A stretch of DNA of 56,694 nucleotides from Acidimicrobiia bacterium (GTDB taxonomy: Bacteria; Actinomycetota; Acidimicrobiia; UBA2766). Where the stretch lies: the NCBI GenBank assembly GCA_020850945.1, contig JADZDR010000010.1, forward strand, positions 1 through 56,694. Reading direction: 5' to 3'. The notes beneath the pieces were generated by a model that saw only the letters and a list, made by a program, of their open reading frames with translations, made no database searches and was not told the origin of the DNA. Every line of letters starts with the position of its first letter. Position 1 is the stretch's first letter. The position numbers were made by a program, and so were the translations under genes. Shown here piece by piece: positions 19,965 to 22,325 of the stretch.

Positions 19965-20744
19965 ATGTCAGGTCGAACTCACGACTCGACATCGTCCGTG
20001 CCGCGCCCCGGCCGGGCCGGAAATGCTGGAGCACCACTCCTCGTGTTGTACTGGATACTCAAAGCGATCGTGCCCCGCCTCCTGCGCGTCTTCTACCGCA
20101 CGCGCTACGTGGGGCGGGACAACGTCCCCCGCCACGGTGCCGCGATCATCGCCGCGAATCACCTGAGTGCGATGGACTGGATATTCATCCCCTGTGGCGT
20201 CAAGTGGCGCAAGGTCACACACGCGGCGAAGGCCGAGTACTTCGACTCCCGCCGCACGCGCTGGTTCTTCTCGGGCACAGGCCAGATCCCGACCAAGCGG
20301 GACGGTGGCAGCGCGAGCACGGGCGCCCTCCTCGCTGCCCGTGAGGTCCTCGAAGACGGAAAGATCTTCGGGATCTACCCGGAGGGGACGCGGTCGCCCG
20401 ACGGACGCCTGTACCGGGGAAAGACCGGCGCCGCCCGTCTCGCCCTCGAGACCGGCGCGCCCCTGATCCCGACGGCGATCGTGGGAAGTGACATGGTGCT
20501 GCCGGCCGGCGCGAAGCGCCCGCGGATCGCCCCCGTCACCGTGACCTACGGTGCGCCGATCGACGTCGAGCGCTACCGGGGTTGGCGTGACCGGCGTGCG
20601 GCATGCCGCGCCCTCACGGACGAGCTCATGATGCGCATCGCCGCCCTGTCCGGCCAGGAGTACGTGCCGGACCTCTACGCGACAGACGCGAAGAAGGCGA
20701 TCGCAGCCGGCCGCCCCGTGCCCAGCACGACCGCCGCAGCCTGA
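19965..20744 (+). CDS. 1-acyl-sn-glycerol-3-phosphate acyltransferase (PlsC-like)
   Basis: A 259-residue membrane-associated acyltransferase. The active-site motif is ANHLSAMDW (the H-x4-D box: H-L-S-A-M-D) near residue 66; YPEGTRSPDG is the glycerol-phosphate-binding motif near 143; and IPTAIVGSD is the fourth block. A short hydrophobic segment (APLLVLYWILKAIVPRLL) near residues 23-40 anchors it. It would acylate lysophosphatidic acid in phospholipid synthesis. ATG 19965 is chosen from the family length; upstream frame is long but non-coding in appearance. It ends in the 48-bp palindrome that separates it from the converging glycerol kinase gene. Confidence 0.88.
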   Translation: MSGRTHDSTSSVPRPGRAGNAGAPLLVLYWILKAIVPRLLRVFYRTRYVGRDNVPRHGAAIIAANHLSAMDWIFIPCGVKWRKVTHAAKAEYFDSRRTRWFFSGTGQIPTKRDGGSASTGALLAAREVLEDGKIFGIYPEGTRSPDGRLYRGKTGAARLALETGAPLIPTAIVGSDMVLPAGAKRPRIAPVTVTYGAPIDVERYRGWRDRRAACRALTDELMMRIAALSGQEYVPDLYATDAKKAIAAGRPVPSTTAAA

Positions 20745-20762: not shown

Positions 20763-20810
20763 CCTCTGGGTACCTGAGCGGCGATATATCGCCGCTCAGG
20801 TACCCAGAGG
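20763..20810. terminator. 48-bp perfect palindrome between convergent genes
   Basis: Positions 20763-20786 are exactly complementary to 20787-20810, a zero-loop perfect palindrome centred on ATAT, with arms including GGTACCTGAGCGGCG. It begins 19 bp after the acyltransferase stop and ends 22 bp before the glycerol kinase stop, so it is best read as a bidirectional intrinsic terminator without a T-tract. It could also be a cruciform-forming or protein-binding site. Confidence 0.75.
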
Positions 20811-20831: not shown

Positions 20832-22325
20832 TCATCCCGTCCCGAAGGCGACCACGCGGGCGACGGCACGCTGCCACCTCGCGTAGGCCATGTCGGCGGC
20901 GGCGCGGTCGCCTGCGGGTTCGAAGCGGCTCTCTGCCTGCCACGAGTGGGTGATCGTGTCGAGCGAGTCCCACTGGCCTGTCGCGAGGCCGGCGAGAAAG
21001 GCAGCGCCAAGGGCGGTCGTCTCGGTGGAGCGGGGGCGTAGGACCGGGATGCCGAGCTGGTCCGCCTGGAGGCGGCACAGGATGTCCATGACGGCGGCGC
21101 CGCCGTCGACACGCAGCTCCACGGGTGCGGTTCCGAGCACGTCGGTCATCGCCTCGACGACATCACGCGTCTGGAAGGTCATGGACTCCACCACGGCGCG
21201 CACGACATGGGCACGGGTCACGCCGTTGGCGAGGCCGAACACGGCGCCCCTCGCGTACGGATCCCAGTGTGGCGCACCCAACCCGGTGAAGGCGGGTACG
21301 ACGACGACACCGGCCGTGTCGGGTACGGACTCCGCGACAGGGCCGGTCTCGGCCGCGGATTCGAGGAGGCCGACCTTGTCGCGCAGCCACTTGACGGCGG
21401 CCCCCGTCACGAAGATCGAACCCTCGAGCGCGTACGTGGTCTTGCCTCCGAGCCGCCATGCGACAGTCGAGAGGAGCCTCTCGCCACCTTCGGGTACGGA
21501 GTCACCGGCGTTGACGAGTACGAAGCTCCCGGTCCCGTAGGTGTTCTTCGCCATCCCCGATTCGACGCACGCCTGCCCGAAGAGGGCGCACTGCTGGTCA
21601 CCGGCCATCCCCGCCACCGGGACGCGGAGGCCCCCGAGGCCGGACGGGTCGGTCCGGCCGACGTCGCCGCTGCTGTCCACGATCTCGGGCAGGCTGTGGC
21701 GGGGGATACCGAAACGGGCGAGCTGCACATCCGACCACGTGCCCGTGTGAAGGTCGAACAGCAGGGTGCGCGACGCGTTCGATGCGTCGGTGACGTACGC
21801 ACCGCCCGTCAGCTTGAACGTGAGCCACGTGTCGATGGTGCCGAAGCAGAGGTCGGGGCCTACGTCGAGCGTGTTGCGGATCAGCCATTCCATCTTCGTG
21901 GCGCTGAAGTACGGGTCGTAGCGGAGCCCCGTGATGCGACGCGTCTCCTCCTCGGAACCCGCCTCACGCAACTCGGCACAACGATCCGCGGTGCGGCGAT
22001 CCTGCCACACGATCGCCGGCGCGAGGGGGGTGCCGGTACGGCGGTCCCACGCCACGACGGTCTCTCGCTGGTTCGTCATGCCGATCCCGCGGATCGACTC
22101 CCGGTCGAGGGCGGGGTTCGCGCACACGTCGATCACGCATGCCCGCACGCCGTCCCAGATCTCGGTTGCATCATGCTCCACCCAACCGGGGCGTGGGTAG
22201 TGTTGTGCGAACTCGCGCTGGCTGGACGCCGTCACCGTGCAGTCCGGTGCGATCGCGAGGCACCGGACGCTGGTCGTGCCGGCATCGATGGCGAGCACAT
22301 GGGGTGCCGAGCGCTGCTCCGTCAT
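20832..22325 (-). CDS. glpK: glycerol kinase
   Basis: A 497-residue FGGY-family kinase that makes sn-glycerol-3-phosphate from glycerol and ATP. The first block VLAIDAGTTSVRCLA, the motif GMTNQRET, the glycerol contacts WQDRRT and MAGDQQCALFGQ, and the C-terminal VDGGAAVMDIL are all as in GlpK. Length matches E. coli GlpK (about 500). ATG 22325 is chosen by homology; upstream frame is read-through. It is divergent from the phosphofructokinase gene (45 bp apart), linking glycerol and hexose-phosphate metabolism, and converges on an acyltransferase that uses its product's acylated form. Confidence 0.95.
   Translation of the reverse strand: MTEQRSAPHVLAIDAGTTSVRCLAIAPDCTVTASSQREFAQHYPRPGWVEHDATEIWDGVRACVIDVCANPALDRESIRGIGMTNQRETVVAWDRRTGTPLAPAIVWQDRRTADRCAELREAGSEEETRRITGLRYDPYFSATKMEWLIRNTLDVGPDLCFGTIDTWLTFKLTGGAYVTDASNASRTLLFDLHTGTWSDVQLARFGIPRHSLPEIVDSSGDVGRTDPSGLGGLRVPVAGMAGDQQCALFGQACVESGMAKNTYGTGSFVLVNAGDSVPEGGERLLSTVAWRLGGKTTYALEGSIFVTGAAVKWLRDKVGLLESAAETGPVAESVPDTAGVVVVPAFTGLGAPHWDPYARGAVFGLANGVTRAHVVRAVVESMTFQTRDVVEAMTDVLGTAPVELRVDGGAAVMDILCRLQADQLGIPVLRPRSTETTALGAAFLAGLATGQWDSLDTITHSWQAESRFEPAGDRAAADMAYARWQRAVARVVAFGTG

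Follow-up and report, generated by a model that had tools for sequence, protein, structure and literature searches.

A perfect, loop-free palindrome of 42 bp is present in about sixty nearly identical copies across one bacterial genome. According to our analysis these copies are probably a species-specific, REP-like, ultra-short insertion family, a palindrome that was inserted at about 60 positions in the chromosome of one actinobacterium (possibly a member of the Acidimicrobiia, to judge by the named relatives of one protein) and was sometimes co-opted at the ends of genes. Short palindromic repeats are among the commonest and yet least understood repeats of bacteria. With 42 invariant bases and paired flanks specific to each copy, and with neither a loop nor a tag nor a detected RAYT, this family offers a clean test case for spread without known transposases and for the upkeep of a perfect palindrome.

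The palindrome of the window

One copy lies in the stretch of 56,694 nucleotides analysed here (the window). Positions 20763-20786 pair perfectly with 20787-20810 (24+24 bp, zero spacer), which agrees with the initial annotation of this DNA, where a perfect 48-bp palindrome without a loop had been described between two converging genes. These genes are an acyltransferase gene (PF01553; 20043..20744, plus strand), which converges from the left and has its stop at 20744, 21 bp ahead of the 42-bp unit, and a glycerol-kinase-like FGGY carbohydrate kinase gene (PF00370 and PF02782; 20832..22724, minus strand), which converges from the right and has its stop at 20832, 24 bp past that unit. The true start of the kinase is probably further in than that of the open reading frame, the first domain of which starts at residue 143.

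The palindrome had also been called unusual for its length, and rightly so: it is the only inverted repeat of such kind among 28 in the window (arms up to 30 bp apart), loop-free palindromes with arms of at least 24 are expected there 4e-9 times, and the longest arm reached in 10 mononucleotide shuffles of the window was 11. Perfect palindromes become unstable from roughly 100 bp upward, so the instability in many hosts, also predicted at the outset, is not expected at a length of 48 bp. As single-stranded DNA the 48 nt fold at -29.9 kcal/mol, and the surrounding 96 nt fold as RNA at -64.3 kcal/mol (z -9.1); Rfam covariance models at their gathering scores gave 0 matches in the window.

The unit of the family is narrower than these 48 bp. 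Common to the copies are the 42 bp at 20766..20807, whose two halves are CTGGGTACCTGAGCGGCGATA and TATCGCCGCTCAGGTACCCAG and whose invariant sequence is CTGGGTACCTGAGCGGCGATATATCGCCGCTCAGGTACCCAG. The outer 3 bp on either side, a left arm CCT at 20763..20765 that pairs with a right arm AGG at 20808..20810, are specific to the window copy; these outer positions vary among the copies and nevertheless pair above expectation.

Copies in the same genome

A DNA search of the genome to which the window belongs (G000; 3.91 Mb in 97 contigs, 98.5% complete) returned many further copies. A pattern search with the 36-bp core, allowing up to 3 mismatches, found 56 sites (56 forward and 56 reverse matches, against 0 with the reversed pattern as control), and copies truncated at contig ends come in addition to these. 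A one-off terminator is ruled out by this number of sites. Flanks were read for 52 of the 56 sites, the site on contig C82 being read separately and standing outside the 52. Identity is complete over 42 bp in 43 of the 52 copies and over the 36-bp core in 44, and each of the remaining nine carries one private substitution on a single arm only (9 in 52 x 42 bases, about 0.4% per base), which makes a star-like pattern, as in recent spread.

There are hardly any decayed or half copies: half an arm (18 bases), searched with at most 3 mismatches allowed, matched 62 times forward and 61 times in reverse against 5 and 4 in the controls, and three of the extra matches are copies near contig ends or cut by them (C54, C40 and C82); the C82 copy, near the start of its contig, has an imperfect centre. 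A family that is either young or homogenised is our best reading of these data. One variant, present as a single copy (L195:19290-19331, which is G000 C22:119290-119331; also L218), has the same arms and a centre changed symmetrically by two bases per arm, GGCCGTATACGGCC, and this symmetric double change fits a copying of one arm from the other.

The closest pair of copies is 552 bp apart by the coordinates of the 56-site search. Two loci, L052:2462-2594 and L055:2526-2651, have in common about 130 bp around the palindrome, in inverted orientation, at 85% identity with the 42 bp identical, and with non-homologous neighbouring genes; a longer duplicated block is perhaps the reason. At least seven contigs (C35, C37, C39, C40, C54, C72 and C82) end within about 100 bp of a copy, and C54 stops at the dyad centre. 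The assembly thus seems to break at the palindrome, and the copy number is a lower bound.

Flanks of the unit

Beyond the 42 bp the sequence differs between copies, and the flanks are unrelated in most cases. In 36 of the 52 copies the unit is immediately enclosed by T on its left side and A on its right side; in 10 these two bases are A and T, respectively. For the 49 copies that have 60 bp on both sides (3 of the 52 were dropped), pairing at positions 4, 5 and 6 outside the 36-bp core is found in 43, 29 and 24 copies, with 28.9, 18.9 and 13.7 expected, and the loci L082, L048 and L066 have longer private arms. Further out, at positions 9-12 on both sides, there is a weak common motif (G, C/T, G, T), which is shared as a sequence and is not compensatory. 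No direct repeats above the level of shuffles were seen beside the 49 copies as a target-site duplication, and neither GTAG nor CGTC occurs as a common tetranucleotide in the flanks of the 52. The idea that the unit enters the tip of terminator hairpins already present was considered and is unsupported past the first few bases, joined flanks folding no better than re-paired ones at widths of 15-35.

A flush insertion between T and A or A and T, together with weak symmetric flanks and copy-specific pairing, suggests a symmetric blunt-joining enzyme or template switching at a hairpin. In E. coli, inverted repeats that are imperfect become more perfect through template switching (PMC7202029), and in yeast the process homogenises arms (PMC8604942). 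Could the quasi-palindromes then have formed in place and have been perfected by template switching, with no movement at all? The gradual fading of pairing into copy-specific flanks, the symmetric change of the L218 variant and the E. coli precedent speak for it; however, such a process cannot yield one identical 42-bp sequence at about 60 sites unrelated to each other, and we regard it as very improbable. Template switching may nonetheless act as a secondary process.

Empty sites and distribution

At seven syntenic junctions of a sister species from the same genus (G001) the palindrome is absent, namely those of the window, L044:7327, L045, L047:6430, L052, L079 and L082; four of the seven have both flanks in one G001 contig, and L075, where only the right flank matches, was left out. 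At L045 the genes are 152 bp apart in G001, and in G000 they are 149 bp apart once the 42 bp are subtracted. Two genes that end in the palindrome continue in a similar way in G001: the stop of the L047 ATPase gene falls, by eye, at the same codon, and the alignment of the L079 glycosidase gene (83% DNA identity) reaches the first bases of the palindrome, where CTGGGTACC stands against CAGGGCACG.

The L082 copy is located within the coding sequence of an epimerase (PF01370, PF08338) and is in frame with it. The inserted residues are absent from all 35 aligned epimerase relatives, and the closest relative, that of G001, is 21 residues shorter at this place; as 14 residues stem from the palindrome itself, the loop was longer beforehand, or else the outer arms are part of the insertion.

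Identical copies at unrelated sites, private mutations and empty syntenic sites together point to a spread by insertion. The same data bear on the suspicion that the copies are a library linker or an artefact of assembly. Some library linkers are palindromes themselves, and the seven or more contig ends close to a copy would suit such an origin, which we nevertheless consider extremely improbable: the flanks are collinear with G001 at the syntenic junctions, and the intergenic bias described below, the private point mutations, the in-frame insertion of L082 and the weak flanking motif all stand against it.

Some of the empty sites of G001 contain arm-like fragments, GGTACCTGAGC for L052 and CCTGAGCGGC for L044 (10/11-mers were counted in 341,595 bases, 11.9% of them N), and their resemblance to the arm has a combined p of about 0.012 over the seven junctions under either of two nulls. 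We treat as a lead that these fragments are old decayed copies, or else homology that guides the insertion. At L198:7700-7800 (G001 C390), orthologous to the L047 site, a different quasi-palindrome, GTTGCAC...GTGCAAC, apparently follows the ATPase gene, as judged by eye.

With up to 3 mismatches, the 36-bp core has no match in 295 other genomes of the class (three of the same family and 292 more), the zero count for G001 being a lower bound because this genome is 87% complete and partly N. The exact 30-bp core has no match in 84,980 species genomes. An origin from a plasmid or phage was rejected, there being no similar plasmid or phage record at E 0.01 and no exact match of the 36-bp core in viral contigs. 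Other loop-free palindromes with arms of at least 12 are absent from 120,830 bases of G001. Several single, unrelated palindromes of 30-46 bp, likewise loop-free, occur in another genome of the same family, G003 (L097, L098 and L101; contigs C2, C3 and C6). The GC content of the ten G003 stretches read is 54%, and that of the other three genomes is about 67-68%; some of the G003 stretches may therefore be contaminants.

Genomic placement

By the rough gene calls of our own codon-score caller, 15 of the 52 copies lie between convergent, 23 between tandem and 9 between divergent genes, 4 are at a contig edge and 1 is inside a gene; orientation was counted on the 47 copies that remain without the contig-edge and genic ones. 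Across 448 kb of the same genome 91% of the sequence is coding, and intergenic regions of at least 20 bp are 14% convergent, 61% tandem and 25% divergent. Convergent junctions are thus over-represented (15/47 against 14%, p about 0.001), 19 of the 23 copies in tandem pairs are closer to the upstream stop, and only 1 copy in 52 is genic although 91% of the sequence is coding. Ten predicted genes have their stop codon within the palindrome, in the frame CTG GGT ACC TGA (..L-G-T-stop). Together with the in-frame insertion of L082, these ten genes illustrate that repeats of this kind reshape proteins.

Pfam was run on 36 of the 94 listed flanking genes and on the two of the window. It supports four divergent junctions by domains on both sides (L045, L058:4368, L060 and L065). 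The flanking genes include those of SRP54, DnaB, pyruvate dehydrogenase E1, a class II tRNA synthetase and UvrB, that is, unrelated housekeeping functions. A regulon was considered and set aside, as the flanking genes examined with Pfam have no common theme, and no mobile island was seen among them. Two copies about 1 kb apart enclose a gene with weak AbiEi and DUF559/REase-like matches (L063:2504-3600), the end of which falls within one of the two.

The initial annotation had proposed a bidirectional terminator, and had advised a search for similar palindromes at convergent junctions; such a search yields the 56-site family, with 15 of its 47 placed copies convergent. The convergent setting was well seen, and the enrichment agrees with it, but the existence of a repeat family was not visible at that stage. 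In its extended form the explanation would be that a bidirectional terminator, or a stabiliser of mRNA 3' ends, was duplicated to many gene ends, and it draws on the convergent junctions, the proximity to the upstream stop in tandem pairs, the great stability of the hairpin region as RNA, the stop codons provided to ten predicted genes and the different hairpin that G001 apparently has near the L047 site. As a general explanation it fails on several points: nine copies are between divergent genes, four of these junctions being checked with Pfam; TTTT within 15 nt is found in 0 of the 104 flanks of the 52 copies; a terminator scan has no match at the window palindrome; and a terminator has no need of sequence identity, let alone of 42 invariant bases. 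We consider this role unlikely as the reason for the family.

Discussion

From the data above it would be reasonable to suggest that the palindrome has spread by insertion, and the proposed course of events is as follows. The inserter would be an enzyme other than a detectable Y1/RAYT transposase, or a repair or template-switch process, and it would join the hairpin flush into the step between T and A of a weakly symmetric site, with no duplication of the target. The Y1 transposase (PF01797), which was the sole mobiliser family searched, has no match in the 98.5% complete genome, with controls positive in 5 of 14. Copies that landed in genes would have been lost, leaving survivors in intergenic regions, mainly just past stop codons, and switching of the polymerase between templates at the hairpin may keep the arms matched and extend the pairing into the flanks. 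Some copies would now passively supply the last codons and the stop of a gene and may affect mRNA 3' ends.

Several observations weigh against this course, or at least against its simplest form. That genes are almost entirely free of copies is difficult to square with a very recent random burst, and such scarcity of genic copies needs either targeting or strong or long selection. The arm-like fragments of G001 could mean older decayed copies or sites pre-adapted by homology, and the 85% flanks of L052 and L055 around an identical 42 bp fit constraint or gene conversion equally well.

Another explanation is that the palindrome is the binding site of a host protein, such as a nucleoid organiser or a factor of segregation or repair, and that its copies are kept identical by selection or gene conversion. 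Near-absolute conservation (43 of 52 copies), the scarcity of decayed copies, a symmetric weak outer motif resembling an extended binding site, the dispersal beside unrelated housekeeping genes and the arm-like fragments at G001 sites would all suit it, and a bound site kept by selection fits almost as many facts as insertion does. Several findings count against it, however: the palindrome is absent from the sister species, from the other genomes of the family and from a further 292 within the class, one arm tolerates the change of a single base, and the L082 copy adds residues to a conserved gene, that of the epimerase. To our knowledge, protein binding sites are also far shorter than an invariant core of 42 bp. 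We hold a bound site to be unlikely, and retain insertion as the preferred reading.

Comparison with known systems

Among the listings obtained in our literature search no paper was recognised as describing the 42-bp family. Under the broad definition given in an excerpt of PMC12306157, REPs are extragenic, palindromic, short, similar and multicopy. By this definition the family is a REP: 1 of 52 copies is genic by rough calls while 10 overlap the stop of a gene, and the 56 sites are short and similar, 43 of 52 being identical over 42 bp. It is not a REP by the RAYT-linked definition. The REP/REPIN sequences of RAYT (TnpA_REP) are characterised in the portion of PMC3733652 used here as short, with many near-identical copies, intergenic and placed mainly in convergent and unidirectional gene pairs, and our family resembles them as a short palindrome with many near-identical intergenic copies that lie mainly in such gene pairs. 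Parts of PMC8266576 describe the GTAG tag as important for TnpA_REP. In contrast to RAYT-type REPs, the 42-bp family has no GTAG or CGTC tag at its foot, no loop, no BIME arrangement of close inverted pairs and no Y1 transposase detected in its genome.

Other systems share single features with it. Rickettsia palindromic elements are, according to PMC10969869, palindromic inserts, some of them in frame inside genes, to which the in-frame insertion of L082 and the ten C-terminal overlaps may correspond; they are, however, about 150 bp long and many are genic, whereas our unit is flush and genic in one copy of 52. MITEs differ by terminal inverted repeats and target duplications, the latter having no counterpart here. 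The family resembles intrinsic terminators in its stable hairpin, which is enriched just past stop codons, but it has no U-tract, occurs also in divergent regions and is invariant in sequence.

The nearest analogue in size and behaviour, as far as excerpts of PMC4478555 describe it, is GC42 of yeast mitochondria, a 42-nt GC-rich palindromic cluster that proliferates, is mostly intergenic and has no proven mobiliser, just as our unit is a GC-rich palindrome of 42 nt, proliferating and mostly intergenic. GC42 differs, by the same excerpts, in its unpaired loops and AG target nucleotides, and it belongs to an organelle and not to a bacterium; the palindromes of Neurospora mitochondria, on similarly partial descriptions, are a further parallel. 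We may even propose, as a doubtful but specific conjecture, that the family is a bacterial counterpart of the mitochondrial GC clusters: a loop-free 42-bp hairpin that would copy itself into steps of T and A, perhaps primed by short homology of the target to its own arm (some of the empty G001 sites match the arm over about 8-15 bp), through template switching or an undescribed enzyme and not through a known transposase, with its arms homogenised by hairpin-templated synthesis.
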